This document shows positions 1-64,000 of a stretch of 64,000 bases of DNA, piece by piece. The notes under the pieces are model-generated. The model was not told the origin of the DNA, searched no databases, and saw only the letters and a list, made by a program, of their open reading frames with translations. The position numbers and the translations under genes are program-made. Within the stretch, counting starts at the first letter, position 1, and every line of letters begins with the position of its first letter. Source of the DNA: Heterotrichella gracilis (lineage: Eukaryota > Sar > Xanthophyceae > Tribonematales > Xanthonemataceae); NCBI GenBank assembly GCA_032358255.1, contig JAULBX010031591.1, positions 1 to 64,000 on the forward strand, in the 5' to 3' direction.

Positions 1-25
1 CCCCCACCCCCCACCCCACCAACAG

Positions 26-3000
26 GGGCAAGTTCTGGCTGGACCTGGTGGGCACCATCCCCTTTGACCTGGTGGCCATCACCCTCCTGGGAGGGTTTGA
101 GGGCATGGACCCCAAAACCCTAGCCCTGTGCTCACTGCTCAAGCTGCTGCGGGTGGTGCAGCTGTACCGCGTGCGCTGGTTCTTCTCCTACCTGGAGTAC
201 AACCTCACGGTCAGCCTGCTGTGGGTGACAATCGGGAGGAACCTGGCGGTAAGGGGTTTGTAGGGTTTTGGGTTTTGGTTTTGTAGGGTTTTGTCTCATA
301 CGTGGAGTACAACCTCACGGTCAGCTGCTTTGGGTGACCATTGGAAGAAACCTGGCGGTAAGAGTTTTGTAGGGTTTGATAGGGTTTCTTCTCCTACCTG
401 GAGTACAAACTCATGCTCAGCCTGCTGTGGGTGACCACTGGGAGGAACCTGGCGGTTAGGGGTTTGTATGGTCAACGGTAGGGTTTTGTAGGGTTGCAAT
501 AGGGTTTTTCTCGTCCCTGAAGTACAACCTCATGGTCAGCCTGCTGCAGGTGACCATCAGGGAAAGCTTTTGCCATTACATGCATATCCTCCACTCATTC
601 TAATGTGCCATCAATGGTGTATTGTTTCTAGAACTTTCATTTGTGAGGACATGTGAAAGATCTTTTTACCCCGCCCCCTTGTCCCCAGCTCATCCTGTAC
701 GTGACCCACTGGGCCGCCTGCATCTTCTTCTTCATCAGCCGGGAGGTGGGGTTCAGCCAGCAGATACTCATCGGCACAAACGCAGAGTTCTTCTCGCAAC
801 TCAACAACATGGAGCAGTAAGTGAACGCACTCCCAGTACCCCGCGTTGGTGGGGTCTTGAGGGCGTCCTTAGGGTGTAGAAGTTGTAGTCGGTGGTGTAG
901 GCACGCGAAGGCGAGTGAACTGGGAGAAGTATCGAGCATCAAATCATCTCTGCATAATATACAATTGCCAAAGTCTGTCCAAAGTAAAATGTGATGTCGT
1001 GCAATTTACTCATAGGTATCGTAATCTGTTGTGATTGGGAGTGAATTGCACGTGCAGAGCTGCGTCACATTGCAACGGGTGCATGGACTCAAGATAAAAA
1101 ATGGAAATGTGCAATAAAAAATACAATATTATGCATTCTACAATCTACGTGTGGGCACACAACACATCTTTTGTACCTCCACATCCCTTGATTACCCCGC
1201 CACAACACAACACAATTCGGCAAAACACTTGATTGGTATCCCCAAACCCTTAATTCCAACCCCAAAACCCTTTCTCAGGTACATCTACGCGCTCTACTGG
1301 GCGGTAACCACCCTGAGCACTGTGGATTTTGGGGACAACGTGCCAAACACCATGCCAGAGACGGTGTCTGCTGGCGTGCGCGCCTCCATCTTTTTCATTT
1401 TCAACATCATCCTGGGGGCCTATATCCTGGGCACCATCACGCTGCTGGTGGTGAAATCAGACGAAAGGACGGGGAGGTACCGGGACCTGTCAGCCAGCCT
1501 GAAGCAGTACTCCAATTCCAACGGGCTGCCGCCGGTGAGTGCAGGGGCAAGGAAGCCTCGAAAACCCTTAAAGATCCGCTAAAATTGCTTTCAAAAAGAA
1601 CATAGTGCTGGTGGTGATTAAAAGACGATGAAAGGACGGGGAGGTACCGGGACCTGTCAGCCAGCCTGAAGCAGTACTCCATGTCAAATGGGCTGCCACC
1701 GGTCTAGGGGAGTAAAACCCTAGACAACCCTATAGAAAACCCAGGAAACCCTAAAGAGTCATATCTCTGGAAGACCATTACGCTGCTTGTGGTGAAATCA
1801 GATGAAAGGATGGGGAGGTATTGGGTACTGTCAGCCAGCCTGAAGCAGGACTCCTATGGTTGAAGGGCTGATCGCTCCATGCCTAATAAGCTGCCACCAG
1901 TGAGAGCATAGGGTCACAATACCCTAGAAACCCTGGGAAACCCCAAAGAACGTTTTCCACATGGGTTGTTGTCTCCCCATGTAACCCTCTTTCTCCCTAC
2001 CCCCAGGAGCTGAAGGACAGCATGCAGGAGCACCTGCGCCTGCACTTTGAGAACCAGGAGGCGTCAGACGAAACGGTGAGAGGGGATGCAGGGTTGGGTT
2101 TTTTTTGTTTAGCGCCACAGATAGTGGGTGCAAGGGTTGGAATAAACCCTTGTGTAGTGCAAAGGGTTTTGGGGATGAGCCGTTTGGTCATATGACGGGG
2201 TGAGGTAGCTTGAGTAGTTAGGAGCCAGTGTTTGTTAGGCGAAACAGTGAGAAGGGCTGGGGGTTACCCCGCTGTTGGGCACTTGCTGCTCTTGCATGCA
2301 TTGTAACCCCACACTATGTCGCCGCGCCCTCACCGCCCCCTCCCCCCCCCCCGCAGGTCCTGTCCATCTACCCCACCACCATCCGCCGCCGCATCCTGCG
2401 CCACCTGTATTTCCGCCACCTCACAGACACCTACCTGTTCAGGGGGTGCAGGGCAAAGTACCTGGACGCACTGCTCAGCGTGGCAAGGTTTGAGCTGTAC
2501 ATGCCAGAGGTAAGGGTGGGGTGTAGGGTTGTGGCTAGGGTTCTGATTAGGGCAAAGTACCTGGATGCGCTGCTCAGCGTGGCCAGGTTTGAGCTGTACA
2601 TACCCGAGGTAAGCTAATGTTTGGGTGTAGGGTTTTGTGTTTAGGTCGAGAGGGCGAGGGTACTGCCGACCAAAGGTGAGTGGAAGGTGTTGTGGTTTGG
2701 AGTTGGCTTTAGGGTTTTGTGGTTTGGAGTTGGCTTTAGGGCAAAGCACCTAGGTGCACTGCTCAACATGGCAAAATTTGAGCTGTACATCTCAGAGGTA
2801 AGGGGCGCCGACTAGGGTTTACTTAGGGTTTTGGCTAGGGTTTCTGATGGAGACCATGTTGACCAACCCCCACCACCACTAAGCGCAATTATTCCATGCT
2901 GATCGCACCCTGTGCCTTGTACCCAGGTTGAAATCATTGCCGAGGGCGAGCAGGTGAACGAGCTGTTCCTGGTGGTGCAAGGCTCCGTGGAGATCCTCAC

Positions 3001-6000
3001 CAGCCAGTACGACGGGGCAGCACCGCCGCCGCCCAAGCAGGGACGGGACGAGGGCCCCCACCCCAACGGAGACACCGAACAACCCAGGACCGCCGCCGCA
3101 GGCTATACTACAGCCGCGTCGTCGTACGCGGGCGATGGTGCGGAGGGGGCGCAGGCGGTGTCGTCCGGCACAACCGCCGCGCTGAAGGAGCGAAACCCTA
3201 TCACGGGGTCCAACGCGCGGCGGCGGACCAACAAGGAGCGGGTGATTGGGGAGGGCGAGCTCTTCTGTGAGGCGGCGTTCTTCACGGAGATCCCTCAGCT
3301 GGAGGTGGGGCTGGTTAGGGTTTGGGATTTAGGGTTTTTAGGGTTTGGGGTGTTCTGCGAGGTACCACTGCTGGAGGTGGGAGGTGTAGGCATACCACCC
3401 AAATCTACCATCTGAAGGTCTTCCCATTCACAACCTTAAACCTGGCCCTGCACCCTACAAACCCTGCACCCCAACCCTCGCACCCCCGTTGCAGCGCATC
3501 CAGCCCCTGACAGTCTGCCCATGCACACAAACCCACCCAAACCCCAAACCCTGAACCCTAACTCTGACCCTTGGCCCCCGCCCCGCAGCCCATCCGCTCC
3601 CTCACTGTGTGCCGTGTGATGGTCATCTCCCGAGCCGCCTATGAGGGCGTGGCGCGCCAGTTCCCCATCTCAGCAAGCGTGGTGCTTGACAACCTGCAGC
3701 AGAAGGCGGAGGCGGTGGGTGTGGGTGGGGTGGATGTGGGGTGGGGTGGTGGGGCACATCACATGGTGATGTTTTATTATGGACACTGGCCATTAATAGC
3801 AGGATGATGATCTGAGCACCGCTGATAGGCCTTGGTAGAGTCTTGGTAGAGTGCTGCAGCAACGGCCTGGTCTTGCACTTAACATGATAAATAATAACAA
3901 TGTATTATCAAGAAACACAAGGGATTTAGTAAACCAACACCAACACCACCAACAACAACAATGATGAAGTATTAATTGGAGTATCGATTAGAGGAGCTGC
4001 TCCCAACAGAAATGAAGGATTGTTACATGAATGCTTCCCCTTTCCCCAGGCTGTGTGCTACGAGTTCCGCAGCAACGGCCTGGACCTGGGCCGGCTCATG
4101 GAGGAGCTGCCAGCAAACATCAGTATCAAGGAATATTTACATAAATGAAATAACTTTAGCAATTAAAACTGTCCCCTGTTGCCAGGCTGTGCGCTACGAG
4201 TTCCGCAGCAATGGCCTGGACCTGGGTCGCCTCATGGAGGAGCTGCCGGCAAACATCAAGTTCAGCTGGGCGGCCACAGAGCTGCTGGACAACGTGTCGC
4301 TGACATCGGCGGATGACATGCACGCGCCGCTACCGCTCAATGCGGAGACAGGTGCGCGCGCACGCATGTGTTTGTGCACAGGAGGGCGATTCATGTGCAG
4401 GTCCTGCTGCAGGACCCTCCCCCCTCCTGCTCTGTCTCACTGCGCCCCCATTGCGCGCCTCACCCAACATCCCAACGAGAAACTCCGCCAGCTCCCCCCA
4501 CTCCCCATTGCAACCATTGCCCACTTCAAGGGCAGCTCTGATCCGCCACATCCACACACCCTGCTCGCCACCCCATTGCAACGTTCACCTGCCGCCAATT
4601 GCAGACCCTGACCCCCACCCTCCCCCTCCCAGGCCTGAACAACCGCCAGGAGCAGGTTCTTAGCAATCTCCTGCGGGTGAAGGGCATAGTGGAGGCGGCG
4701 GTGAAGCGCGCGCAGCAGGAGCGCACAACAACGTTCCTGTACTCTGCATCGAGAGGGGACGCGGGGGCAATGCGCCAGGTGGGTGGGGGAGCCACTATCC
4801 TCGTCATGAACCCTTAACCATAAAGCATGACTCTTAAAACACTACAACAAGCTGCAAAGCGCGTGCAGCATCAACGGGCAGCAATGCGCGCAACAATTTG
4901 CTCCGGCAGGCGGCATGAAGGGGGAATGTGGGGAAATGCATCCCGAAACCCTGAAACCGGGTTTCCTGCACGCAACCTCCACCATGCCAACCCTAACGCA
5001 GGGTTTCCCTGACTGCGCAGATGCTCCAGCAGGGCTTCAACCCCGATGCAGCCGACTACGATGGCCGCACCGCCCTCATGCTGGCCAGTGCAAAGGACCA
5101 TTTGGACGTGGTCTCCCTGCTGCTGACAGCTGGCGCCACCATCAACTTGCGGGACAGCCTGGGATCCTCGGCCATTGCTGAGGCCTGCAAGTACGGTCAC
5201 GATGACACCATACAGCTGCTGGTGAACCACGGGGCCAGGTGCGGGGTGGGGTGTGGGGAGGGTGTGTGTGGGGTGGCAGAAGGGGATGGGAGCCTAGTTT
5301 TATGTGCATCTGCATTGCTGTAATTGAGTTCCATACCCAATGTAAGGGTTTGCTTCACCAAAAAGGGGCCCTTTACGCTACAAAACCCCCTCTGCCAAGC
5401 CTTACAGGTTAAGGCTGAACGATGTGCATGAGGCTGTTTCCGTAACAAAACCCAACCAAAACCCTACCAAACCCTGCCAACATCCTGACCAAACTACCCT
5501 TGCAGGTTGGGCGTGAATGAGGTTGAGGATGCCGCCAGGCTGTGCACCTGCGTTTTTGAGGGAGATCTGCCCAAGCTGAGGCGCTTTTTGAAAGCGGGGA
5601 TTGAGGTGAACGCCGGGGACTACGACAAGCGCACAGCGCTGCACATCAGCGCGGCGGAGGGAAACCTGGCAGCGGTGCGGTGTTAAGAAGCCCTACACCT
5701 TACCCTGACACCCTAGCGTGAGGACCAGTGGAACTTCAGTACCCCTTTTCCATGTTTTGTTCTGGTGGGGCGACACACCCATGAATGAAAAGGGTAATGG
5801 AAAACCCTTACAGCAGCCTGAAAGTGCCCTAACAGGATCTGAAGAAAATCTCTAGAAACGTTCACCATACCGCAAACGGAACTTTTGACTGAGCTCCCCT
5901 GTCCCTTCTTCAGGTCCGGTTGCTTGTCGAGTATGCGGATGCCGACCTTTTTGTGAAGGACCGGTGGGGCAACACACCCATGGATGAGGCCAGGAGGGTG

Positions 6001-13432: not shown

Positions 13433-16400
13433 ATGAGATCCTCGTGGTGTCTGCTGTTCGGTCTTCTGCTCAGTTGCTGGGCTGGCGCCTCATTGGCAGG
13501 GTACGAATGCTGGCATACACTGCACGCTGCACGCCTTGCAGTGGCCTGGGTCGTGCTATTGTGGTGTTAACCTGGCCTCTGATAGTTCCTTGGACTATGT
13601 ATATTGTATTGCTTTGCAGGAAGGACTACTATGGAATACTGGGAGTGTCTAAAGGCGCCTCAGATGCTGAAATCAAGAAGGCATACCGGAAGATGGCACT
13701 GAAATACCACCCAGTACGTGCCAAGCACCTGATTTCAGTCATCCATGTCCCTCAACCGGCTTTGCTTATTCCCTGGTGTGGTGCATCGACGCCATTGCAG
13801 TGCTGCAGAGGGAGAGGTGGGCACTGACGGTTTCCTAACACGAGTGATCTGGTCGAATTGCAGGACAAAGTACCAGGGGGAGACGAAGAAAAGAAGGCTG
13901 CGTCGACGAAGTTTGCCGACGTCAGCAGCGGTACGTGCTCCGTCCGACTTAGGTCCAGACTTTTGCAGCTGCACTATGCATGCATTGCTGACTTGTGCGT
14001 GATCCTGCAGCGTATGAGGTGCTGTCTAACGAGGAGAAACGCCAGATTTACGACCGGTATGGCGAAGAGGGGTTGCAACAGCACAGCCAACAAGGCGGCG
14101 GCGGTGGTGACCCCTTTGGTGGAGGAGGGTAAGTCATGGACTTGTGCTGGCATTATTCTGTCATTCATGTTGGTTGCATGCTCCAGCAATGCGCCCAGAT
14201 CACCAGGTTACCCTACATTGTAGCTCGGCCTCCGCGGTAGAACTGCAGCAAGGGTCGCAGGTGCCTCACCCATTGTGTAAAAGTACGTGCGCATGCAGAG
14301 CTTGGCCCATTCTTGCTCATGACACACACCGCTCTGTAGGTTCGATCCTTTCGGCTCTTTCTTTGGGTTTGGAGGCCAGCAACAGCAGGAGGAGGAAATA
14401 AAGAAGGGCGATGACGTGTATGTCAACCTGGAGCTGAGCATGAAGGACCTGTACCTAGGCAGGGAGATGAAGGTGCGGGGCACGGCCCACACGGCAGCAG
14501 TAAAATACACCCAAATTTTATACCTCACAATATCTCCCACCGCTGGTGACAGTCCATGCATATTTGCTCACTGCAGCCTGATGTCCTGCCAATCGGTGGT
14601 TTGTGGGCAAGGTGGAGTGTAACATCCCGGCCCCCGAGGTGGCTGTGTAAGGGTTTAGGGTCTGTGGGCAAGGCCAAGTGCAGTGCCTATGCATCTCGGG
14701 TGCAGAACGCAGTGCAACAATTCCTGGACCTTCAACCAAACACCCTACCCTAATCTACATGCCCCAGGTGACGCGCGTGAAGAACGTGGTGCAACAAACC
14801 CTAGACCTTCCAACTACAAACCCTAAACTCTACTCCACGCTCCCAGGTGACTCACGTGAACACGCGGTGCGGAAACCCTTAGACCTTCAATTTGTAAACC
14901 CTAAACTCTACCCCATGCTCCCAGGTGACTCGGGTGAAGAACGTGGTGCGGGAAACCAGCGGCACCAGGAACTGCAACTGCAAGAATAAGGTGGTGACCC
15001 GGCAGGTGGGGCCGGGGATGTACCAGCAGTACACCACGCAGGAGTGCGAGAAGTGCAAGCAGGTCAAGCTGGAGCGGGAGACGGAGGAGATCCTGGTGGT
15101 GGTGGACCCAGGCATGAACGATGGGCAGGTATGGTTGCCTGCTGGATGAGTGAGTGGTTGTTGCGTACGCGCGTTCCGGCAGTGGGTTGCGCCACTCAAA
15201 CATGTCCTGGCAGTGCGGATGCCATGGCTGTATGTGTTTGGTATTGCGAAAGCACTCTTGACAGCTGGGAAGAGTTTAATGTACGTTTGCTGCATGCTGT
15301 CGCAAGCCCTGCATGACAATTGCCATTTGGCAGTCACCTCCAGCCTTAGATTTTAGGGTCTAGGGTTTCAGCCACTTGGCAGTAAGTACTGGCTGGGATT
15401 GTATACGCAGCTGCCGCAGGCAACAGCTTGATGCATGCACCAGCATTTGCATGCTGCGTTGACATGCTCTGCCTCCTGCACCAGTAATGGTTTAGGTTGT
15501 AGGGTTTAGGGTTTAGGGTTTAGGGCTTGCACAACAGGGGAACAGGGGCAGCGGCTAGGTCTTGGCAGTGCCACATCCCACCATCGGCATGTGCGCATAC
15601 CCGACCTCCCACCGCACATGTACACCGGCACTGAACCTCCATCGTGTCCCGCATGCAGCACATCACCTTCCCCGACGAGGGCGAGCCGATAGTGGATGGC
15701 GAGGCCGGGGACCTCAAGTTCGTCATCCGCCAGCTTCCCGACCCGCGGTTCAAGCGCAGGGGGAGCAACCTGGAGCACAACGCCACCATCAGCCTGCTGG
15801 ATGCCCTGGTGGGGTTCACGAAGCAAATAGAGCACCTGGATGGCCACAAGGTCACGCTGCATTCGGACGGCGTCACCCGGCCAGGTGCGGCGAAACTGCT
15901 GCTGTGTTGTGCATAACCACGTGGTTGCTGGAAGTGAAGGATGGTGTGGTTTAGGGTATAGGGTCAACAGTGCATCAGGTAGACTGTAGGCTTCGGGTTT
16001 CAGGGACCACACTGTGCAGTGCATCAGGTGTGGATTGTATGCTTATTAACACTGTGATTTGCAGCGAGGATCTCTGCAGCAGTGCAGAGGGGTGCGGTCA
16101 GTCTCCTGTTGCGCAATAATAGGAGTCATTGGTGGACAGGAGGGCAATGGCCGTCTCCTCTCATCTACTGTTGTCGATCCTGAGCCCTCGTTTGTATATA
16201 ATGCGCCTGTACAAGGACACTTGTTTATGCATTATATGTGGCGCAGGGGAGACGCGGGTAATCTCAGGAGAGGGCATGCCTATCTATGCGGGCAGCAAGA
16301 AGGGGGCGCTGTTTGTCACTTACACCATCGACTTCCCCACGGAGCTCACCCCTGAGCAAAAGCAGCAGGTGAAGGCTGTCTTCTCTGGAGCAACCTTCCA

Positions 16401-20800: not shown

Positions 20801-21052
20801 CAGTGCATAAAATTGGAAGACTATAATCCAATCCTATGCAGTGCTTTTTTTTTTACTTTCTAAAACAGGCATCAAGCATCTAAGCATTTTGTGGTTTTTC
20901 CTGCAGAGGCTGCAGTTCAGGAGCTGGCGGCAGGCGTGCGGCACCTGAAGGAGGTGCAGGGCCTGGCAAACTCCTCGGAGGAGGTGCAACAAGCGGTGGC
21001 AAAGCTGCTGGAGGCCAAGCAGGCCCTGGCGGAGCTGCAGCAGCACAAGTGA
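17895..21052 (+). CDS. MEKHLA-domain protein with C-terminal helical tail
   Basis: Exons: 17895-17994, 18076-18128, 18308-18447, 18742-18859, 19040-19120, 19544-19685, 20171-20308, 20907-21052; 305 residues with agreeing phases. The middle matches the PAS-like MEKHLA domain: LWEAPFCILSHDAGEPRLFN, YANKASLELFEATWDEF, RPSSTSAE, GWRRSLKGTRFRL and TMWNV ... VGQAVVF. MEKHLA domains form the C-terminus of plant HD-ZIP III factors and occur alone in cyanobacteria and algae; their ligand is unknown. Here the N-terminus is short and basic (MAKKGGAKKGGQKKGPG) after a possible plastid leader, and the C-terminus is an Ala/Glu/Leu-rich predicted helix (EEVQQAVAKLLEAKQALAEL). There is no homeodomain, so this is the stand-alone form. 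The start at 17895 is tentative; a Met at 18114 (MAKK) is an alternative. Confidence 0.85.
19198..19440 (+). repeat. Two copies of the exon 19544-19685 acceptor edge
   Basis: Segments at about 19196-19265 and 19371-19450 repeat the exon start (CAG|ACCCAGGAGGAGCGG, DDVHEKGVSFGY) together with an upstream CATTTCCATTTCC-type tract. The second copy is intact enough to act as an alternative acceptor; the first is decayed. Confidence 0.85.
19710..19842. repeat. Long intronic inverted repeat (58-bp arms, 17-base loop)
   Basis: Arms 19710-19767 and 19785-19842 are reverse complements with about four mismatches. The element sits in the intron after exon 19544-19685, starting 24 bases past its donor, and the right arm runs into a TTTAGGG run. 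It would fold into a strong stem in the pre-mRNA. Confidence 0.93.
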
Positions 21053-21185
21053 ACGACACAGGGCCGATTGGTAAACTCCAGGGTTGAGCTCAGTGCGCAC
21101 CAACATCTGCTGATCAGGGGGCTGCTGCGGCTGTGCGCCAGCTGTAGTGGGGGCAGGGCATGGGGTGGCTCAGGCCTAAACTTAC

Positions 21186-21310
21186 TACTTTGATGAGGTG
21201 CAATTAGCAGTGGCAAGGCTGCTGGAGGCCAAACAGGCACTGGCGCAGCTGCAGCAGGCAAAGGACGATTTCGTACGGTTCAGCTTAATGTGCACACCAA
21301 GGCAGCAATT
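21186..21310 (+). repeat. Decayed copy of the MEKHLA gene terminal exon and 3' UTR start
   Basis: Repeats 20983-21105: the coding stretch EEVQQAVAKLLEAKQALAELQQ and the following non-coding bases (the TGCGCACCAA-like region), with the stop codon position mutated. Confidence 0.8.
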
Positions 21311-21454
21311 TTCTTGAGCATGTGTGCTTGGGACAACAAGGCAATGTTGGGGCCTTGGAACGCAATGCACTGGGGGGCATCATGCTCACACGCCGCATTG
21401 GAGCAGTTGTGCCGCAGCAGGTGTGACTCTCTGTTTGGAAGCATGGGCAGTCAT

Positions 21455-22086: not shown

Positions 22087-27180
<5,094 letters not shown>

Positions 27181-27261
27181 CAGGGGGAGTTGGTGTGTGG
27201 TGGTCTGGGGATGCGCGTGCTGGTGCTGGTGGTGGGCGGGTGTGGCGGGAAGGCAGCGCCT

Positions 27262-27350
27262 GTTCCTGCCGGGAGGCACCTGAGGGCGCCAAGCAAATTG
27301 TGCTCAGACAATGGTCAAAGTCATTTGGGACCAGGCCACGTGACTGGGAT
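27262..27350 (+). repeat. Copy of the NSF terminal exon and stop region
   Basis: Repeats 27110-27190: PEGAKRIALSKWSQVI-like codons with mutations, then GGGACC..GGC.ACGTGA, so even the TGA is kept. It lies about 90 bases past the real stop. Confidence 0.85.
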
Positions 27351-45227: not shown

Positions 45228-45234
45228 GCCCAAG

Positions 45235-45425
45235 GGAGGAAATGGTGAAGGAAGAAACTGAAAAGGGGGGGTGATACTGCAGCAGGTCTGAGGCCAAGCG
45301 GAGGAGCAGGGCATACGCGATACTGCAACAGTTCTGAGCCCAAGAGGGGAATCAGGAAAGGGAGAGAAGGAAAGGGGGGGGGGGGGTATATGCGATATTG
45401 CAGCATCTCTGAGGCCAAAGGGGGA
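45235..45425 (+). repeat. Tandem copies of the NCA2 terminal exon end
   Basis: 45276-45340 repeats GCCAAGCGGATGAGCAGGGC...CTGCAGCAGTTCTGAGCCCAAG (AKRMSRAYAILQQF and stop) almost exactly; 45388-45430 is a third, more decayed copy. G-rich AAAGGGGGGG linkers separate the units. Confidence 0.9.
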
Positions 45426-46854: not shown

Positions 46855-46935
46855 ACCGGTCCACCACCCGCATCTCTGCCAGTTCCAGCCATGGCATTCC
46901 TGGCGCCACATTTGCTGATCTGCTTGATCAAGCCT
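46855..46935 (-). repeat. Decayed copy of the epimerase terminal exon end
   Basis: GGTCCACCAC.C.CATCTCTG and CCTGGCGCCAC..TTGCTGATCTG parallel 47060-47135 of the real last exon; it lies past the stop on the minus strand. Confidence 0.8.
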
Positions 46936-47056
46936 CCTCTAACCAGGACCTTGTACCAGCGTGGCATGGAAGTTTCTGGGTTCCATTCCATTCCCACCCT
47001 CCAGACCACCACATCCGCCCATCAAATCCCCACCGGAAACCACAATCCCACCCCCT

Positions 47057-51892: not shown

Positions 51893-54800
51893 ATGGAGTA
51901 CTACCACAACCCAGGCGGGTATGTGCAGCAGCCGCAGATGGCGTACGGGCAGCAGCCACCAATGCCCCAAGCCATGGGGCCAAGGGTGCTCCCACAGGGG
52001 TACATGGGACACCCCCAGCTGGCCCCCTATGCCCCCATGCCCCAGCTGCAGCCCAGGCCTCCCGCACCACCCCCAACCATGTACGGCAACCCCCCCATGC
52101 AACACAAGCCGCAGCCGCCGATGGGCGTGCCCATGCCCCTGGCGCCGCCCCACCCGGCCCGGATGCCCAACGACATGCCAGGCCCCATGGCGCGGCCCAG
52201 CCAACAGGTGCACAGCCGGAGCCGCCCCGTGGCCCCGCAGCAAATGGGGATCCCAGGGGACCAACACCTGGGACCGCACTTTGCCCAGCAGCCGCTGCCC
52301 GCACAGCCCGGCCACGCCATGCCCAGCGCCATGCATGCCCCGCAGCAGCGCATGGCGCAGCAGCCCGCGGCGCACGGCATGGCGCTGCCGCCGGGGTCAT
52401 CCAGCACCGCCGCCATGCAGAACCTTGACCGGTTACAGCTTGGGCTGCAGCATGACCAGCAGCAGCTGATGCAGTTTGCGCCTGTGCCCCAAACCCGCCA
52501 ACCCTCGGGCGCCAAGCAACAGCAGGTCAGTGGGTGGTTGCGCACTCATCTGCATTTTTCTCTGCAAAGACTCTTTGTCTGCAAATAAGCTTTTCCCCTT
52601 GCCGGCCCTGGGTACCAGCAACACAGTGCCCCATGCAGTAAGGAGAATACACGCGCGCCTCGGGTGGGATGCATTAAGAATACCACACGTCATGCATAGC
52701 AACCTGCGTGCCCCATGGCACTTGCCAGCTAGCCTTGACATGGAGGGGGATCATCTTCAGGCACGCCTTTGGCGCCACCGCCGTTGCGAGTTTTCAACCA
52801 TTTACCCTAGTACAAACCCCAAAACCCTAAAAACGGCATTCCCTTTCCTTCCAGGTCAACGGCCAAATCCAATCCGCCAAGCTGGACCAGGGCTACGCTG
52901 TTTACCCTGAAACTAACCCCAAAACCCTGACACGGTGCCTCAAAACCTAAGAACACCACCCCTTCCTCTTCTTCTCAGGTCAACGTCCAGATCCAATCCG
53001 CTAAGCTGGACCAGGGCTACACTAATGCCCACATGCACCCGCACGACCAGATGTCCGGCCCGCAGCCGCTGGCCATGCAGCATGTGCAGCAACAGGGGAG
53101 CGCGCAGGGCGGGGGCCTGCAACCGAGCCAGCATGTGGTGCCCTCCTACTTGCACGAGTTCTATGAGGTGCTGGATAAGATTGGCGAGGGGACCTATGGC
53201 GTGGTGTACCTTGCGCGCAGCAAGGCGCAGTCATCGACGTTTTTGGCGGTGAAGACATTCAAGACCGGCAAGGTGGGTGGATAGGGGATGGGGGCAGGGG
53301 TGATGCGATGGGGGAGGTGGTGCGGGGACCGGCGGCCAGTGGCGGCGGTGGTGATGAGTTAGTGCGCCCACTTTGTTACGTACATGTGGTGGTGGTGTGG
53401 ACTGTGAATTGCAGCAAATCCTCAACCCACATAGCGGTCAAGATATTCAACGCCAGCGAATGTGGATGGCTGCATGTGGACGTGGCAAAGGATTCTCCCT
53501 CTTATGAAGGAGGGCTGTTTCTCCTTCTGCTGTAGCAGGGAGGATGTGTATCTCATACCGCCATTGGAGAAATTCACGGCTCAAACATAACCCTCAAACC
53601 CTAAATTCCTACCCGCAGGAGGGCGACGGCGTGTCGCTGACCGCCATTCGTGAGATCATGCTGCTCAAGGGGCTGCGCCACGCAAACATAGTGCACCTGG
53701 ACAGCGTGCACATAAACAGGCAGGCAAGTGGCTGGTGCAGTGGCATGCCCAGGAGGTATATCCAGGTGCACCTGCACCCCCGAGGTGGTAATGTGTAAAC
53801 CAGAACTCCTGGCTTACACACTAACTCCCTTGGCATCTGCGTGCTGACAGCATCCCTGGTTGACTCTCATGCAAACATAGTGCACCTGGACAGCGTGCAC
53901 ATAAAACAGGCAGGCAAGTGGCATTTTTTAAGTGGCGTAGTAGGTGCATCAGCGTCACCGGGGGTGCATTGCCTGCTGCACCATCATGTCAAGGTTGCAT
54001 CGCCAGGTGCATCGGAGCATGTTGTTTCTACGCCACGCCAACATCGCGTATACCTGGACAGCATGCACTTTGACAGGCTGGCATGCGCAATTTTGGAGGA
54101 GCATCCCCAGGTGCATCAGCCATCATCCCACCATATTATCTTGATGCACCAGCGACCATATCCAAGCACGCACCACCCCTCACCCCCACACCCCCAACCC
54201 CATTCAGGACCCCTGCATGTCCCTTGCCTTTGACTTCGCTGAGCACGACCTGTATGAGATGATCCGCTACCACCGGGAGCACCTCAAGTTCTCCCCGATC
54301 GACGAGTACACCGTGAAGTCGGTCATGTGGCAGCTGCTGCGGGGGCTCTCCTACCTGCACCGCAACTGGATCCTGCACCGGGACCTCAAGCCATCGAATG
54401 TGCTTGTTATGGGGGAGGGGAGCGAGCATGGGCAGGTTAAGATCGCGGATTTCGGGCTGGCGCGGGTGTACAAGTCGCCCCTGCGGCCGCTGTCGGACAA
54501 CGGCGTGGTGGTGACCATTTGGTACCGGGCGCCGGAGCTGCTGCTGGGTGAGTGGGGGTGGCGGTGGTGGGAGGTCCATTATGGTGGTGATGGTAGTGGT
54601 GGTGTGGGGGTCATGGTGTGCGTGCGGTGGTTCTCATGGGGATGAACCATGTTTCATCGCTGCATAAACCAACACCAGGAGGTAGGGTGGTGCATGAAGG
54701 TATGGAGGTAGCCTGCGCAGCTATTGGGTTGAGGCGCCTACCCCGGCCAATTGCTGCAATGTGGGGGTGGCGGGCGGGTGTGAGCACCTGTTTTGGGATG

Positions 54801-56439
54801 TTCCTCGCATCCCCTCCACACATTCGCAAAGGAAGGCAAAAGATAACAGGTTGCCACCTCGTAAATTTGGCAAATTTGGGATAATTTGTCACTGTATGGG
54901 CTGCCGATCTGCCCATGGGCCCCCCATGCGCTCCCCCACCGTGCGTCCTCCCCCTGCCCCTCATGTCCCACCCCACTCCCCCTTCTGCCACAGGCGCCAA
55001 GCATTACACCCCCGCGGTTGACCTGTGGGCTGCTGGGTGCATCTTTGCGGAGCTGATGACCCTGCGGCCGCTGTTCCAAGGGGATGAAAGGAAGCAGCCG
55101 GGGAACGCGTTCCAGAGCGACCAGATTGACAAGATCTTCACGGTGCGTGGGCTGTAATTTCAGGGTTTTGGGTTTTGGATAAAGGGTTTATGGGACGAGA
55201 AGGAGGTGGGGAATGCGTTCCAGAGCGGCCAGGTGGACATGATCTTCATGGTGCGTGCTAGGTTCTCTAGGGTTTAGGGTTATAGGCCGAGGGAAGCAGC
55301 CCGGGACAAGACCTACGCGGTTGTGCTGGGTTGGAGGGTTGAGGGTTTAACGGATAAAGCAGCACATGGACACATTCCAGAGCAAATCGCCCCCTTCCTC
55401 AAAAACACCATCCCCACCCTCATAAACACCATCCCTACCCTCAAAAATACCATCTCCACCCTCAAAACGACCCATCCCCATCTCCAGGTCCTGGGCCAGC
55501 CCAGCGCGCACGCGTGGCCCGACCTCGAGTCCCTCCCCCACTGGCGAGACAACAGCGAGGGGTGCCGGGTGCGGAGAGCGGGCACTGCTGCCAACCGCTT
55601 GCCTGAATGCCTGCTGGAGCACTGCCGGGTGAAGGGGGTTGCCAGGGGGTGCGAGGCGCTCAAGCTGCTGGGGGAGTTGCTGGAGTATGACCCTGCCCGG
55701 CGGCTGACCGCGGACCAAGCGCTGGAGCACCCCTACTTTAAACAGGTGGGGATAGGGGATTTTTACCCTAATTGTACCCTATACTTGGACTTGAACCCTT
55801 GCCGGTTGACACCCTAGATGCATCCCATTGAGCCTTGTTTCCACAGCTGTTTGTCCAGACCCTAAACCCTAAACTGGGATTCTAAACCCTTTCTGGCTAA
55901 TGCATGATGCGGATTGAGAGCATGGTTGATTGAGCGCTGGACAACCCCTAGTTCAAGCAGCTTGTGTTGCTCAATTTTGTAGCTTGGATGCTGCAGCCCA
56001 TGTCATAGGTGGGGTGCCCAATGCTCGGCATCGCTCAATACCCGCTGCCACTGGTTGGTGGGCAATGTTAAAGTCGCTCATGTGACTATTTAGGGTTTAC
56101 ATCCCAAACCCCCAAACGTCGAACGACCACAAAGCCGCACATGCCACTGACCACCCCCACCACTTTCCACAGGAGCCCGTTGCGTCCATGAACGCGTTTG
56201 TGGTGAACGGGCGCGTGGTGGCCCAGTACCCCAAGCGCACCAAGCACACAGTGGATGGCGGCAGTGGCAAGGCCCCCCAGCCTGGCAGCAAGGGGGGCAC
56301 CGGTGGGCCGCAAGGGGGGACGCAGCGAGAGAACGGGAAAGGGGAAGGGGGGGCCAAGGCGGGGCGGCTGCCCACGCGGCCCACGGCGCCTGTGGGGAAT
56401 AAAAAGCGCAAGGCCGAGCTGGGGCCTGGCTTCCGATAG
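51893..56439 (+). CDS. CDK8: CDK8/CDKE-type Mediator kinase
   Basis: Exons: 51893-52525, 52979-53272, 53619-53723, 54208-54547, 54994-55142, 55488-55745, 56173-56439; 681 residues, phases agree. The kinase domain begins near residue 265: [22 protein letters not shown], the cyclin-contact helix [14 protein letters not shown] (plants have SPTAIRE), [49 protein letters not shown], and the CDKE-type insert (PLFQGDE ... [17 protein letters not shown]). CDK8 with cyclin C forms the Mediator kinase module that regulates RNA polymerase II transcription. Unusual: an N-terminal extension of about 260 residues rich in Pro, Gln, Met and His ([14 protein letters not shown]...). The Gly/Lys-rich tail ends in [12 protein letters not shown], a likely nuclear signal. 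The third intron appears to start with GC, not GT. Confidence 0.95.
52845..52945 (+). repeat. Copy of the CDK8 exon-2 acceptor edge
   Basis: 52853-52905 repeats 52977-53025 ([34 protein letters not shown]) with an intact acceptor, followed by a CCCCAAAACCCTGACAC linker matching the one before the real exon. Confidence 0.9.
53868..54090 (+). repeat. Two copies of the CDK8 exon-3 donor edge with the GC donor
   Basis: 53872-53920 repeats CAAACATAGTGCACCTGGAC, AGCGTGCACATAAA and AGGCAGGCAAGTGGC, so the GCAAGT donor is copied too. 54030-54085 is a more decayed copy (CGCCACGCCAACATCGCGTA). Confidence 0.9.
55190..55262 (+). repeat. Copy of the CDK8 exon-5 donor edge
   Basis: GGGAATGCGTTCCAGAGCG-CCAG.T.GACA.GATCTTCA.GGTGCGT repeats 55100-55150, in the intron just past it. 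Confidence 0.85.
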
Positions 56440-56489
56440 CATGCACGCTAGGGTTTGAAGGGTTTTACAGAGTAGGGTACTAGGGTTTT

Positions 56490-56552
56490 TCTTGCCTGCG
56501 GGGAATAAGAAGCGCAAGGCGGAGCTGGGGCCTGGGTTCCGATAGCGTGCAT
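56490..56552 (+). repeat. Copy of the CDK8 terminal exon with its stop codon
   Basis: Repeats 56390-56450 (GGGGAATAA.AAGCGCAAGG, CCGATAGC.TGCA.G) with few changes; [12 protein letters not shown] and TAG are both preserved. Confidence 0.92.
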
Positions 56553-57711
56553 GTATACTGGGCTTTTGTTTTCCTCGACAGCTATACTTGACTCAGGACA
56601 ACAATACAATGTGGCGTGAAGTGGCACGGCCCCAGTTAACTGCCACAACACATCTGCCAGGCGTTTTCTAAACAATATACAGTCTTGCAACAATAACCCT
56701 CTCTCCATGTTGTGCATCCCCTTTCTTTCTTTCCTGTATTAAGGTAGTATGGGAGTTTTGGGCTGACCCAATTGTGTGCTGTGCTAGCTGGGAAGAGGGG
56801 GCCTGTAAGTTACGTTAAACAATGGAGGCCACAGTTTTCGCCAGCCGTTACGCTCAACCATACACCGGGTGCAACAATTCAATGGATTAAACAGGGCCTG
56901 AAAATATTGCCCAGTGCATACTCTATGTATTGCTGTTGCTGTAGACAAAGTTCCCTGAGGCTATTAGGTAATACCACCTGTTTTTCTGCAGCGCTGATTT
57001 TATTTGGGGGGTGGCTGGAGGTAGTTTCCTTAGGGTAGCTGCTACCCTGCTGCAGGGTTATTTGATTAACTGGCATAATGCAGCAGGGTCGTGGCGATGA
57101 TTGGCGCACTTCAAATTACACAGGCATAGTGCAGCAGGGTCGTTTGTTTAAATTAGAATCTGTCGTCATTGACAATAATAAACCGGTGATCCAGCCCGTG
57201 GGCTATCACTGTGTGACACGTCGTTGCCATCTTGTGGCGGCCCCAATGAGTGTTTCCTTCTTTGAAAGAAATGTTACTTCTCGAGCTCCAGGTCACTCAG
57301 CAAGTTGCATGTCCCATAAGGGGACTCCCCTCCGAGGCTTGCAGTTCTGACCCTCCGCGACTAGCAAAAAGTTCCCTCATTGCACACAGTTGCACAGTAT
57401 TAATAGCAAGCTCGCCACAGTGGCCGCCGTGAGGCCCGCTTTGTCCACCCTATACAGGAGGACCTCCTCCACCTCATCCCCAGGGGCATCTCAATGCCAC
57501 AGCCTGCCCATGCATTTCCCCAAAGAGAGTTTCAACGCGTCAATCATTGAGAGCCCCTGTGGTTTCCCTTCACAAAGTTGCTTTTCAACCCTTCAACCCC
57601 TGTACGAGTAGCCCTCCTACTGCTGGAAGCAGGCGCGCCACCCCCCCGAAGAGCCTCGCCACGGAGCTTTTCCCAGGGAGAAAAACAACCACACTAAAAA
57701 GCCTGCGTCCT

Positions 57712-57870
57712 CATCTCACTGCACAAAGTTGTTGCCTGCAGTGGCCGCCTTGAGGCTGTCGTCATCCAGCCTGTACAGGTATATCTCCTGCTGCTTGAAG
57801 TAGCGCCGGTCCTCCTCGTCCACCAGCACCAGGTTGAGGTAGTGGCACTCCTTAGCAAGGCGCAACACCC
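57712..57870 (-). repeat. Copy of the VPS26 terminal exon with its stop codon
   Basis: 57715-57852 repeats 57940-58075 at very high identity: LNLVLVDEEDRRYFKQQEIY, LYRLDDDSLKAAT and NNFVQ plus the stop. A far older copy lies near 57405-57480. Confidence 0.93.
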
Positions 57871-57942
57871 TGAGATGCGCGGGTCCAGGAGCTTTTCCAC
57901 AGCGAGCAACCCCATCCTACAAAGTGCCTGCGCCCTCCCCCT

Positions 57943-60307
57943 TCACTGCACAAAGTTGTTGCCCGCGGTGGCCGCCTTGAGGCTGTCGTCATCCAGCCTG
58001 TACAAGTATATCTCCTGCTGCTTGAAGTAGCGCCGGTCCTCCTCGTCCACCAGCACCAGGTTGAGGTAGTAGCGCACGCTGAAGCGGTTGTGCACGTTGC
58101 GGTAGGTGGCGGTGAGGTCGTAGGGGGACAGGAACAGCCTGCGGGGGCAAGGGGAGGGGAGGGGGCATCAGGAGGGGTGTGTGGGAGGGGGGGCAGGTTC
58201 CACAAATGGGCAAAGGAGGGATTTACCCCAAACCCTAATCCCCAAACCAGGGGAGAAGAGAGGAAGGAGTTGCAGGCGAGGGGATGACAGGATGTAGAAG
58301 GAGCGACATTGGCCTCCAAAGGGGAGGAGGGGAGGGGAACACGGGTGGTGAGGCCTGCATGGTGCGTGTGGCAGCAGGTACTGTGGCGGATGGCGGCGTG
58401 AAAGCCACGAGGAGGCTATCATGCATGCGTATACTTGTGGGCGTGCAACTGAGACGGCGCTGTGCATCGGTCAATTCAGATGGCCTTTGCTCACAAGTAC
58501 CTAAGTGCGATCACGATAGGTCATGCGAGTGCAGTGCATTACCCTCCCACACTGGTCATGCCACTGTCATGCGTCTATCTTGCACTACCCCCCCACAGTG
58601 GTCATGCCACTGCCATGCCATCCCACCTTTTCAGCGCAAGGCGTGTTGCAGTTATAATTTGGGCAGCCTGTTGCATGGGTGCACCATCCAAACACCCCGA
58701 CAAAATCAATCGCTGCCCGCACGCACCTGATGGGCACATTCTCCCCCCGCACCGGCGCCCCATCCATGATCTCGTACTTGGCCAGCGTCTCGCTCTCGTT
58801 CTTGGCGTGCGCGCCCGACCCCACCGTCTCCCTGCGCCGGATCTCAATCTCCATGTGCTTGAGCTTGATGCGCACCAGCAAAAAGTAGATCTTGCCCACC
58901 ACGGTGTCCTTGAGGTGGTACTTGCCCTTGTCGTACTCAAACTCGATGTGCAGGCAGTCCTCGATGCCCACCTCCATCTGCGCCAGGTTTGGGGTTTTAG
59001 GGTTTAGGGTTTTGGGGTTAGGGTTGGATATCGGGGGAACCCTAAACCCTGAACGCAGGGTTTGAACTCGATGTGCAAGCAGTCCTTGATGCCGCCCTCC
59101 ATCTGCGCCGGGGTGTAGGGTTGGATTCAGGGGAATATTACTCCTGGTTGCACCCTACACCCTTATACCTGCACCCTACACAGTTTACTCCTGGTAGCAC
59201 CCAACAACCTACACCTTAACAATTTACTCCGGGTTGCACCCTACACCCTATACCCTAAACAATTCAGCGTTTAGGGTGCAGGCGCTGAGTTGCAGCTCAG
59301 GTGGGGCCAAGCGGTACCTTGATGGGTGCGGTGGCCTCGGGCATCTGCTCATAGTTCCTCACCCAGAAGGGGAAGTCCTTGACGATGTTGGTCCCCATGC
59401 CTGGTCTCGTGATGGACACTCGCAACAGGTACCTGTTGGCATGCCAACCGCCCTTGGTTACTAAGGACCTTGCCACTTCACGTATTCAGATTCAGTACGA
59501 GGTCTGCCGAGAGATCCCTGCTGGGTGGCGCAAGCTGTGCAAGGGTGACTGCTAAGTCTGGCTGGGATGCATGTAACACACTACCTATGGTGGAGTCAAG
59601 GCAATTACCCCATGCGCCGCATGTATGTGGATGTCAGCATGGTGTGGCGGGCAATTTGAGAGAAAGCGTACCTTAACCGGACTTGGGCTCCCTTGTACGA
59701 GTCATACTGCATCTCCACGTTGTTGAACTCGTAGGGGTATGTGTGCTGCGTGGTGATCTCACCCACTGGTGCAAGGTCCCGCACTGCACACACGCAAGGC
59801 ACATTCTCAGTGTACAGCCCTACAATGCCTTGTCATGTTGCCAATTGCCAACCAGCCTGTCATGCTGCCAGCGGTTCAAGATAGCCAAGTTGACACAGCT
59901 GAAACCCACTTAGAGCTGTGCTGCCCCCGTACCTAACGATACGAACTCGTGTGGATGGCCCCTGTCAGATGCCAGCTCGATTTCGCCCAGGAGCTGCACC
60001 TTGATGCCTTGGTGGTCAAGCTTCTTGCCGGGGATGGGTGTGATTTTGACCTGCGCAACGGTTTGCAGCCCCCGTCAACACCCAGCTCACGCCTTGCCAT
60101 GCATGCATGGTTGTGCAGTCCATGCGTAGCGAGCCCTACCTCTCCTATCACGTTGTCCTTGTTGGTAAACAAGGGCAGCGTTTCTGGGTCCCCGTTTTTG
60201 CCTTTGACGACGACGGTTTTGACTGGCTGCCCCTCCTCTCCTTTGAACTCCAGCTGCACTGTGCATACTGTCCCCAATCCCAGGCCCCCGAGCAGGTTTT
60301 TCTGCAT
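57943..60307 (-). CDS. VPS26: VPS26, retromer core arrestin-fold subunit
   Basis: Exons: 60140-60307, 59933-60050, 59672-59783, 59318-59432, 58727-58977, 57943-58138; 319 residues with agreeing phases, close to the family length of about 300-330. Recognised blocks: KNLLGGLGLGTVCTVQLEF, IPGKKLDHQGIKVQLLGEIE, VGEITTQHTYPYEFNNVEMQ, then the highly conserved VGIEDCLHIEFEYDKGKYHL, KIYFLLVRIKLKHMEIEIRR, YEIMDGAPVRGENVPIR, LSPYDLTATYRNVHNRFSVR and YYLNLVLVDEEDRRYFKQQE. VPS26 binds VPS35 on endosomes and helps recycle cargo receptors. Met at 60307 follows a possible acceptor (gcatgcag), so a further 5' exon cannot be excluded. An intron contains a LINE fragment on the opposite strand. Confidence 0.95.
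59038..59105 (-). repeat. Copy of the VPS26 exon-5 start
   Basis: GAACTCGATGTGCA.GCAGTCCT.GATGCC...CTCCATCTGCGCC repeats 58940-58985 with its acceptor; TTTAGGG/CCCTAAA runs lie between the two. Confidence 0.9.
59105..59272. repeat. Intronic minisatellite, about 50-60 base units, three copies
   Basis: Units share TTACTCC[GT]GGT[AT]GCACCC and TACACC; starts are near 59138, 59187 and 59227. It lies in the VPS26 intron between exons 4 and 5. Confidence 0.85.
59454..59570 (+). mobile_element. Second LINE-type RT C-terminal fragment (VPS26 intron, antisense to gene)
   Basis: An open frame at 59454-59555 reads LVTKDLATSRIQIQYE, then VCREIPAGWRKLCKGDC and a stop. It shares VTKDL and the WR-x-L spacing (17-18 residues apart) with the fragment at 43745-43925, and the bases around both stops are also similar (TGCAAGG.TGA.TGCT). 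Alone it would be weak; the match to the other fragment makes it convincing. Confidence 0.65.
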
Positions 60308-61429: not shown

Positions 61430-63781
61430 ATGGCCGAAGACAACCCCACGCAAGATAACTGCCCACAGCAAGAAGACCCGATCGAGCAACCCAGCCCGGC
61501 ACTGTCTCAGCTTGGAGGTACAACTCATACAAAATCGCCTTGCTGGCCTCTTTTAGGCGATTCCACCCTTGGCCCTCCAGCACCCCCACTGACAACCCCT
61601 GCCCTTGTATCCAGATGCCAGCTCCACAGACGAAGCCGCCCCTTCAGACGGAGAAAGCTCTCAGGATGACGCGTGCAAAGGGACCGAACAGGACCCTAAG
61701 CGCCAGATCTGCTTCGACTTCACCAAGGGTGTGTGCACAAGGGGCAACGCCTGCAAGTACTCCCACGATGTGGGCCTGATCGTCCAAATCAACAGCCAGG
61801 AGAGGGGCATCTGCTTTGACTTCATCCGAGGCCAGTGCAACCGAGGGCCCCTGTGCAGGTTCAGCCATGACTTGTCAAACATCGCTGCCCAGCAGTGCCT
61901 GGTACGTCTTGTATGAGCTACTGCCTTGTTCTAAAGCAGAGCTTGTGCTCGTGTTCACTCTCCTTGACCTCTTGGTTGTCTTGCTGCCTGGCCCTGACCG
62001 TGGCAAGCTGTGGTGCAGAGCAAAGCCAAGAAGAATGCTCCCATCTGCTACGACTTTGTGAAGGGCATGTGCCAGAGGGGAGGCGACTGCCGCTACTCCC
62101 ATGACCTCAACTCCATCGTCAACAGCCGCAACGCCGCGTCAAGTGGGGAGATCTGCTACGACTTTGTCAAGTAAGGGCTCGCTTGCTGCTGTACTGCTGG
62201 AACACCTGTGAGTAACCAGCTAACTATATTCAGAGATACTGCATGGTACCCTGCATGGTACCCTACATAATGTTCCCCTCACAGTCGTGCCACTGACACT
62301 GGTTTTGTCACCTTGACAGGGGCCGGTGCAGCAGGGGAAGCGGCTGCAAGTACTCGCATGACCTCAGGGCCCTGGCAAACCTCAACAACCTGGCCAACAG
62401 CATCTTGCCCAGCGCCCTGGTGGCCGCAAGCCTCGCCACCAACGCTGCAAGTGCTGCCATGAGCCCAGCCCTGCAGAACTCTCTGCTGGGTAAGCGATGC
62501 TCCAGTGCTGTGCCCTTGTCATCCTTACCATGTTCCACTGTGTGCTGCCCTGCCTGTCCGTATTTTCCACATCGCTGCTTGATGCTGCTGTAAGTTATTT
62601 GCACTGGTCCCTGTTGCCTACTGAAAATATATATATCACTGCACTTGTCATCTCAAGTGAGAGGACGTCGAGGAAGGGACTGCCTGCTGAAACACTGACA
62701 GCCTGCCCCATCCTTGCCTGCAGCCTCGGTCCCCAGGCGCAACTCTGGTGACCTGGATGGCAGGAGCCCACTGCTGTTCCCCAACTTGGCATCCGCCTCA
62801 TTCCTGCCGGGAGCAACCCCTACCTTCCCAGCGGCCACTGCAGGGTAGGTTGCCCACCCACCCGCAATGGCTTGCAGCTTTTGCAGTATGCCTGTTCGCC
62901 CATCTGCTGCTGCGTGATATTTAGTTTGAATTTTGCCTACTGTGGCACCTCTGGTATCCCCAGTTAAGGGTTCATGCCTGTTCCTGTTGGTCATGCCATT
63001 GTCTACCTTATGCTAACCCTCCGCTTGCAGGATGCTTTCCCCCGCCAACAACGCCCTGCTGGCCCAAGCCGCAGCGCTGGCGCAGGCGCAGCAGATGGCC
63101 ACCCCTCTCCAGCAGGCGTACATGCAGCAGCCCGCAACCCCGCTGACCGCCCATTCCATCCCTGGTGGGTATGGCAGCATGGTCAAGCAGCTGCAGCACA
63201 CCCACCTGTCGGATTCGGCGCAGAAGCAGTGGCACGGCGCCTCATTCGGCCAAGAAAACGCAGAGAACATTGAGCCCTACTACGGAAATTTCAGCACGCC
63301 GGTCGGCAAAGGTGCGCTTTTGTCCACAGCTACTCCTACCAGAAATAAACAAATTCACTCCTTGGCGCATTCTGGTGGAAGGCTTTCTGCTAACATGGGC
63401 GCATTGCTGGATTGCTTGCCAATGCTGTTTACCGCAACTGTGCATGTGCATCTGCATTCCCAAGGTCAACTGAACATGCAGATCTGATCCAGCCGCCTGT
63501 GTTTCACAGATCGGATGAGGCAGCCCATGGCCCTCCAGCAGCAGCACCTCGGCAGCTTCCAATCAGTCACACAGCAGCAGCTTGCCGAGGTCGCAGCCCT
63601 GCACCACCTGCACCCCATGTCACCCAGCGGCTACCAGCTCACGCCCAAGCAGGCGCCCCAGGACGCGTGGGATGCGCAGCGCACCCCGCTCAGCGACAGG
63701 AGGATGGCTGGGCTGATGCAGGAGCAGCTGGGCTATGGGTACTCCGAGGGCTACTCGCCGCCGAGGATGGAGGACCCCCTG
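61430..63781 (+). CDS. CCCH zinc-finger RNA-binding protein with four fingers (3'-partial)
   Basis: Exons: 61430-61517, 61615-61901, 62019-62170, 62320-62489, 62724-62844, 63031-63311, 63510-63781; 457 codons in the window, and a good donor (CTG|GTACGC) at 63782 means the gene continues beyond it. Four C-x7-C-x5-C-x3-H fingers: CFDFTKGVCTRGNACKYSH, CFDFIRGQCNRGPLCRFSH, CYDFVKGMCQRGGDCRYSH and CYDFVKGRCSRGSGCKYSH, the last split by an intron. The N-terminus is acidic; after the fingers come Ala/Leu-rich and then Gln/Met/Pro-rich low-complexity regions (LQQQHLGSFQSVTQQQLAEV). Such proteins usually bind single-stranded mRNA and affect its splicing, stability or translation; no more exact orthologue can be named. 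Start chosen at the Met of MAEDNPTQDN. Confidence 0.9.
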
Positions 63782-64000
63782 GTACGCCAAACCCGAAACC
63801 CTAGGGTTCCTTCTTGATTGGGTTGTGCATTTTTAGTACCACCTAATTCAACATGGACAGTTGGTGTGCTGTTACCCCAGCGAATGCATGGATGAAGCGC
63901 ATCCAATAGATTAATTCTGCCTGTATACTTCACAATAATACAACCAGAACATATGCTGGGGTGCGTGGTGTCCTCTGCCTGTCCATGCCTCCGCCTTTGT
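63782..64000 (+). other. Probable intron of the CCCH gene
   Basis: Begins with GTACGC and a CCCTAGGG-type motif and contains no readable continuation of the protein before the window ends. Confidence 0.55.

Follow-up and report, generated by a model that had tools for sequence, protein, structure and literature searches.

Coding-edge duplications associated with telomere repeats in introns of the alga Heterotrichella gracilis

The DNA described here, referred to as the window, makes up the first 64 kb of the 167,983-base contig C896 in the genome assembly of the xanthophyte alga Heterotrichella gracilis (68.5 Mb in 903 contigs). Seven hand-trimmed proteins encoded in the window match the Pfam families Ion_trans/cNMP_binding, AAA (NSF), NCA2, aldose epimerase, protein kinase (CDK8-like), Vps26 and RRM_2, and two of these (NSF and VPS26) were compared with homologues in the PDB. 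An Rfam scan of the window gave no matches. In these genes, short pieces of coding edges are duplicated into the adjoining non-coding DNA, and about half of the copies are separated from the original by units of TTTAGGG, the alga's own telomere repeat. An earlier note on the window, made from its letters alone, had described exon edges copied into neighbouring introns together with their splice sites. The duplication of coding edges is largely real and widespread; the splice site is not its common factor, and the associated telomere repeat had been overlooked.

A further 240 kb, in twelve 20-kb stretches of which one continues C896, brought the total to 13 stretches and 304 kb; counts of adjacent pairs and of telomere tracts rest on 264 kb. 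Local repeats were found by self-BLAST, dropping non-adjacent pairs and pairs shorter than 35 nt (30 nt for the AGGT intron-gain test and the telomere-heptamer counts). Exons are the predictions of a simple exon–intron hidden Markov model (HMM) self-trained on the sequence, which returned 34 genes and 426 introns, with a median intron of 281 and a median exon of 146. Gene models with less than 450 nt of coding sequence (CDS) were excluded from the heptamer ranking, the AGGT test and the intron-end test. Contigs C1 and C100 (L002–L003 and L006–L007) are bacterial-looking, at 35–36% GC and with long open reading frames covering 89% and 62% (C1 having 36% GC and 89%), and were used as negative controls. 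C150 and C200 (L008–L011), at 52% GC and with 0 and 1 local repeats, are unlike the other eukaryotic stretches and possibly derive from another organism or a different genome compartment; they are included in the 264-kb counts and excluded from the placement simulation and from the pool of matched points.

Self-alignment of the 13 stretches gives 141 local direct repeats and a single inverted one. Within the window there are 43 direct and 0 inverted repeats within 2 kb, in keeping with the earlier statement that copies lie in the same orientation as the exon. The offset between copies is mostly 60–240 nt (first eleven stretches), and the copies are mostly about 65–96% identical, one pair being identical. 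On the seven further contigs C50, C250, C300, C350, C400, C450 and C500 the number of pairs in 20 kb ranges from 5 to 33, compared with none on C1 and one on C100. As to 'nearly every gene', by our reading at least one pair is present in eight of the nine gene models that start in the window, the model without one being a C3H zinc-finger gene at 61430. Over more than 3.2 kb the window contains only two direct similarities and one inverted. Among the individual sites that had been singled out, those at 44880, 24892 and 57712 are clear duplications with 82, 90 and 88% identity (Table 1). That at 10876 is weaker (10885–10923 with 10974–11012, 87%), and that at 22905 is not recovered: the intron there matches the exons on either side over at best 16 and 20 nt (scores of 22 and 20), and in a separate test scored in this way 99% of the unrelated pairs of flanks reached up to 23.

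The duplications lie at the edges of coding sequence. Predicted coding sequence (an overlap of at least 10 nt) is included in 102 of 112 adjacent pairs, leaving 10 that are non-coding only; for spacers of at least 15 nt the non-coding pairs are 8 of 104. In a placement simulation, pieces of the observed aligned length were dropped uniformly, those wholly exonic or crossing several boundaries were discarded, and the copies were decayed and subjected to the same detection. The non-coding share of detected pairs was then 70, 65 and 46% with introns decaying at 1, 2 and 4 times the rate of the exon copy. Geometry and detection, as modelled here, therefore do not account for the bias to coding edges (units spanning the entire offset lay outside the simulation), and the claim that copies are commoner at exon edges than elsewhere stands. 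The junction itself is not the duplicated unit. In four genes of the window (at 27115, 45182, 56388 and 57663) the duplicated piece is the end of the CDS with its stop codon and 3′ untranslated region (UTR), and since such ends are copied as well, a splice site is unnecessary for copying. The copied piece is moreover mostly exon: 49 of 54 sided events contain more exon than intron (medians of 52 and 18 nt; 27 of 81 near-flush events, in which the exon side was unassignable, non-coding or too short, were left out).

Ranked by frequency, the intronic heptamers are led by those of the telomere repeat TTTAGGG. This class occurs 1825 times in 163,750 bp of intron, where 19 letter-permuted classes reach at most 262 (median 182). 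There is no excess in predicted exons (53 against a control median of 54) or in intergenic DNA (21 against 18, in a small sample of 18.5 kb). The intronic period is exactly seven, with 452 hits compared with 20 for TTAGGG and 21 for TTTTAGGG. TTTAGGG is the telomere of this genome: contigs C70 and C140 begin with perfect arrays of it, and the assembly has 209 four-unit matches (overlapping ones counted) and none to the reversed pattern. The TERT RNA-binding domain (PF12009) has two adjacent matches at G000:C626:23723-24513, and from these a telomerase gene is likely to be present. Next to the telomere words among the commonest intronic heptamers rank TGCATGC/ATGCATG words.

Telomere words are concentrated close to exons. 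Their coverage is 1.9% within 10 nt of the exon, then 7.2, 9.0 and 6.7% at 10–20, 20–30 and 30–40 nt, 2.6–3.9% at 40–200 nt, 1.5% at 200–400 nt and 0.8% beyond. Telomere coverage at the 97 of 789 intron ends where a copy was detected is about threefold that at copy-free ends (permutation p 0.0002). Where a tract lies within 40 nt of an exon, its left and right flanks are similar in 91 of 207 cases, compared with ~1% of mispaired flanks and 13–17% of random non-telomeric intron points at the same distances. On the acceptor side the words found in spacers are nearly all of the C strand in the gene sense (16 C, 1 G, 25 without a word), while on the donor side they are mixed (12 G, 8 C, 20 without); the acceptor-side preference could reflect avoidance of TTTAG, an acceptor-like motif of the G strand.

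The two features come together as a unit X–telomere–X, in which the tract is bounded by direct copies of the same piece X. A near-flush duplication (within 6 nt on both sides, score at least 14) flanks 81 of 465 telomere tracts and none of 930 mispaired flanks, tracts closer than 140 nt to either end of a stretch being left out. At distance-matched intron points the count is 12 of 465 (17% against 2.6%), and for tracts of TGCATGC and GGTGGGG it is 5 of 209 and 22 of 325. Lowering the score to at least 10 gives 98 events (4 of 930 controls) with a median copy length of 70 nt, of which 19 are non-coding only. The strict events amount to 81 per 264 kb, or 30.7 per 100 kb, a density that would correspond to some ten thousand events when extrapolated to tens of Mb.

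Seen from the repeat pairs, the spacers of the 104 adjacent pairs contain 839 bp of telomere words, compared with 28–132 bp for the control classes (spacers below 15 nt excluded). In young pairs (at least 86% identity; 44 spacers and 41 flanks) coverage is 10.9% in the spacer and 2.7% in the outer non-coding flank; in older pairs it is 7.9 and 4.8%. The shortest of these spacers, of 15–40 nt, have 29%. An exact telomere word is present in the spacer of 49 of 101 spaced pairs. Among the 12 isolated sided pairs with 80% identity or more, the word lies only between the copies in 11 and outside them in just one, a share no different from the baseline of 155 of 1789 (24 of the 81 events were left out of this outer-word test). 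These better-preserved isolated events, with the tract between the copies only, look like telomere insertion with target duplication. The cleanest example is in a four-copy array on contig C300 (R14), where two neighbouring, identical 65-nt copies of an exon end with its donor, at ~14.16–14.31 kb, enclose a 23-nt tract. Sixteen four-unit telomere arrays were fetched from other contigs; nine of the 15 testable ones have flanking direct repeats, L041 solely by way of telomere-like flanks. L028, L029, L035, L038 and L040 appear by eye to be flush or almost flush, and L040 and L028 read as an exon end with its donor. A filler made by telomerase extension at both ends, with the G strand followed by the C strand, was considered and rejected, since 37 of 39 word-bearing spacers (from 92 spaced pairs) have a single orientation, the others reading CG and GCG.

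Once formed, the copies decay neutrally. In 90 sided pairs the mismatches at codon positions 1, 2 and 3 are 154/1656, 160/1663 and 302/1655 (.093,.096 and.182), the remaining 22 of 112 pairs having an exon side that was unassignable, non-coding or too short. A ratio of two at position 3 is that of one free copy and one constrained by the protein, so the copies are without coding constraint, and tandem alternative exons were rejected on these figures. Identity on the intron side is 0.75–0.87 in 5-nt bins, close to that of two neutral lineages. The evidence supports the earlier note in that such copying leaves decoy splice sites behind and lengthens introns. The donor GT is retained in 32 of 37 decoys and the acceptor AG in 35 of 37, where ~0.82 is expected under neutrality from the rate at positions 1 and 2; with retention at or above that level there is no sign in these sites of selection against decoys. 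Three further donor-side rows comprise one GC donor and two reading CA. Gap columns in the copy alignments are ~10-fold denser in intronic than in exonic parts (112 and 10 per kb), which exceeds what neutral decay suggests.

The structural comparisons show which copy is the decoy. The 16 residues encoded by the NSF copy at 24131–24178 form an insertion without counterpart in the solved NSF homologue, and this copy is a decoy because those residues are absent from the aligned homologue. VPS26 without its downstream copy aligns well with solved homologues. The HMM sometimes calls decoys exons, the NSF copy among them, and gene predictors should be expected to label decoy copies as exons in this genome. 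The features of the window are listed in Table 1.

Table 1. Coding-edge duplications, telomere-like tracts and associated genes in the window
Feature	Position	Strand	Identity or evidence
Cyclic-nucleotide-gated ion-channel-like exon, 3′ edge copied	105..248	+	gene model; Pfam Ion_trans 2.8e-10, cNMP_binding
Array of exon-end + donor copies with telomere-like tracts 261-268, 284-291, 370-387, 479-507	164..594	+	
Exonic original; intronic copy	1433..1516; 1774..1857	+	88%
Exon end + donor, copy 1; telomere-like tract; copy 2 (intronic decoy)	2450..2517; 2524..2542; 2549..2615	+	
Acceptor + exon-start decoy; real acceptor + exon start	4036..4122; 4172..4258	+	91%
Mei2-like gene: exon-edge copy; telomere-like tract; original	10877-10934; 10941-10964; 10965-11023	-	RRM_2 6e-41
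DnaJ-like gene: exon-edge copy array with CCCTAAA tracts	14684..14971	+	name by reading the model
Exonic original; copy	20970..21043; 21184-21257	+	85%
NSF exon end + donor, original; intronic copy	23939..23999; 24127..24181	+	PDB homologue alignment
NSF acceptor + exon start, intronic copy; real one	24881..24951; 25098..25168	+	90%
NSF CDS 3′ end; downstream copy	27115-27185; 27279-27348	+	77%
Last NCA2-like exon: intronic acceptor + start copy; real one	44839..44953; 45012..45123	+	82%; PF08637 7.1e-48
NCA2-like CDS end + stop + 3′ UTR; downstream duplicate	45182-45297; 45292-45418	+	
Aldose-epimerase-like gene: exon-edge copy, telomere-like tract 48221-48262, original	48158..48322	-	PF01263 2.3e-43
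Long duplicated segment around tract 48941-48956	48808..49095	-	
CDK8-like kinase gene: acceptor-side copy, tract 52922-52928, original	52814..53043	+	Pkinase 2.7e-54
CDK8-like CDS end with stop (original); degenerate-telomere filler; copy	56388..56445; 56446..56493; 56494..56551	+	91%
VPS26 last exon + 3′ UTR, original; downstream copy	57888..58073; 57663..57846	-	88%
VPS26 acceptor + exon start, original; intronic copy	58940..58996; 59065..59122	-	86%
Telomere tract between VPS26 copies, both orientations	58996..59063	.	

We propose that a continuing process of break repair inserts the alga's own telomere repeat into its genes and duplicates the target by way of staggered nicks and fill-in, a reading to which we give an even chance. 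Two nicks 30–120 nt apart on opposite strands would generate complementary 3′ overhangs, one of which would be lengthened with TTTAGGG repeats in the manner of telomerase. Both overhangs would then be filled in and joined, giving X–(TTTAGGG)n–X with X of ~70 nt. Because X is mostly exonic and the duplications are biased to coding edges, the breaks themselves would be concentrated in coding DNA. An insertion within an exon would bring stop codons and should be lost. Where X spans a splice junction or a stop codon, the exon-proximal copy would stay in use, and the filler and second copy would become intron or UTR. The surviving edge events would decay neutrally, leaving decoy splice sites and longer introns, and arrays would be built up by repetition or by later unequal copying.

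Several observations weigh against this reading. Compared pair by pair, telomere coverage is higher in the spacer than in the outer flank in 32 cases, lower in 16 and tied in 34, and the words are spread evenly across the spacer and not centred on the joint. Fifty-two of the 101 spaced pairs have no exact telomere word, 23 of them with residual tandem homology and 29 with neither; with about half of the spaced pairs in this class, a second route or decay is needed. They may be older events, carry other fillers or be plain tandem duplications. A telomere word lies outside the copies in 6 of 16 isolated sided pairs below 80% identity and in 21 of 29 sided cases from multi-copy arrays (9/12 and 12/17). 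In the R14 array every one of the four copies is followed by a tract; in L035 telomere repeats precede the first copy, and in L040 some come after the second. Outer words in arrays and older pairs are as expected if X and its tract are duplicated as a whole unit, and the arrays and some of the older pairs can also be read as duplication of a larger unit. In the two mammalian surveys concerned (PMC2246262, PMC7215372), telomeric insertions with target duplication make up only 4.5–16% of loci.

A different history would have the telomere-like tracts come before the duplications. G-rich tracts near intron ends would stall replication, the nascent strand would slip by 80–220 nt, and recopying of the edge together with the tract would produce head-to-tail units by template switching. 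The outer words of arrays and less-preserved pairs fit such slippage, as do the 20 of 112 adjacent pairs that are contiguous tandems (spacer below 15 nt) and the residual homology of the spacer to the flank expected of a tandem duplication, present in 39% of 101 pairs where ~10% is expected (spacers below 25 nt excluded). It sits poorly with the single outer word among the 12 better-preserved isolated pairs and with the contrast of 10.9 and 2.7% between spacer and outer flank in young pairs; exons have no excess of tracts to serve as the other breakpoint, and the origin of the intronic telomere repeats is left unexplained. We regard slippage as unlikely overall, though the likeliest of the alternatives. 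Ordinary short tandem duplication, occurring anywhere in genes, would make the telomere words incidental and ascribe the edge bias to selection, geometry and the faster visible decay of introns. The neutral decay of the copies, the involvement of CDS 3′ ends as well as splice sites and the existence of some plain tandems agree with it. Uniform placement nevertheless predicts 46–70% non-coding pairs against the 8 of 104 observed (longer units, the size of the whole offset and so outside the simulation, would touch edges more often), the telomere words peak 10–40 nt from exons, and duplications are tied to telomere tracts well above matched points. We consider it improbable as the general explanation. 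As the sole account, plain tandem duplication was rejected: the spacer homology in 39% of pairs is not enough, since in young pairs and in better-preserved isolated ones the telomere filler lies for the most part between the copies.

A mobile element or introner with a body of telomere repeat might insert near exon edges and make long target duplications. The insertions are indeed restricted to introns and biased to edges, and introners, reported in green algae, are biased to genes and favour nucleosome linkers (PMC9860276). Yet the repeats flanking tracts have a median of 70 nt, compared with target duplications of 3–9 nt in some introner families, the window has very few long-range similarities, and 378 introns lack the signature of a new intron; an element of this kind seems very improbable. 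Least credible of all is an artefact of assembly or haplotype merging. The assembly is fragmented and includes bacterial-looking contigs, but the copies are diverged and have codon-position structure, they are present on many contigs, and a homologue identifies the extra copy.

The duplications can be compared with several known systems. Gao and Lynch are said to have described, in 2009, intron gain by tandem duplication of exon segments, with the new intron arising inside an exon. The present events are alike in being short direct duplications that touch exon–intron structure, but what grows here is introns and UTRs that already exist, and no in-register similarity of donor and acceptor is seen in 378 introns. 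Intron gain by AGGT tandem duplication was accordingly rejected: none of the 378 introns reaches 60% identity in either tested donor/acceptor-flank stretch, and the highest-scoring one reads as a decoy copy. Tandem duplication of mutually exclusive exons also leaves extra exon-like sequence with splice sites in introns, but each copy in this alga comprises a single exon edge and its decay is neutral. Unlike introners (PMC9860276), the events have no visible element body (long-range similarities were sought within the window, and no genome-wide search aimed at an element was made), no 3–9 nt target duplication (the 98 tract-flanking duplications having the median of 70 nt) and no new-intron signature.

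The closest relatives are the telomeric insertions at double-strand breaks of mammals. Target duplication accompanies 6 of 130 loci in rodents, 4 of 25 in primates (PMC2246262) and 3 of 66 in the horse (PMC7215372). No human case lies in an exon, which those papers attribute to the stop codons brought in, and the human intronic share of 31% is that of random placement. As in mammals, the organism's own repeat occupies internal sites, sometimes with direct duplication of the target, which is read there as the result of a staggered break; it is absent from human exons and shows no excess in the predicted exons of the alga. Simple duplication is exceptional in mammals and the intronic share random in human, whereas here the words are concentrated at the coding edges of introns with near-flush duplications of ~70 nt. 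Telo boxes are single telomere units near genes, for which transcription-linked insertion by telomerase has been proposed (PMC3022908). In Arabidopsis and rice they favour 5′ UTRs without enrichment in introns (in Arabidopsis 150.7 per Mb of intron and 155.2 genome-wide); they share with the present tracts the telomere units near genes but differ in the lack of intron enrichment, and the accessible sections of that paper do not mention flanking duplications. A comparative paper on Chlamydomonas treats break repair and intron dynamics, in its available part, without telomere-filled exon-edge duplications (PMC8226300). No report of such duplications in introns was seen among the papers listed by full-text searches of open PMC, subscription papers lying largely outside it, and on our reading the phenomenon is a variant of known telomeric insertion at breaks.

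The wider proposal is that introns in this lineage have grown to a large extent through telomerase acting on staggered breaks within coding DNA, which would have placed telomere repeats with long target duplications at coding edges many thousands of times and left nested decoys in most genes. We put this forward tentatively, at slightly worse than even prospects. If true, it would provide a concrete source of intron DNA that can be read directly in the sequence, and would link telomere maintenance to the evolution of introns, with the divergence between the two copies serving to date each event. Pairs of near-identical splice sites competing within one transcript would, moreover, amount to thousands of natural experiments, from which RNA data could reveal the rules of splice-site choice.

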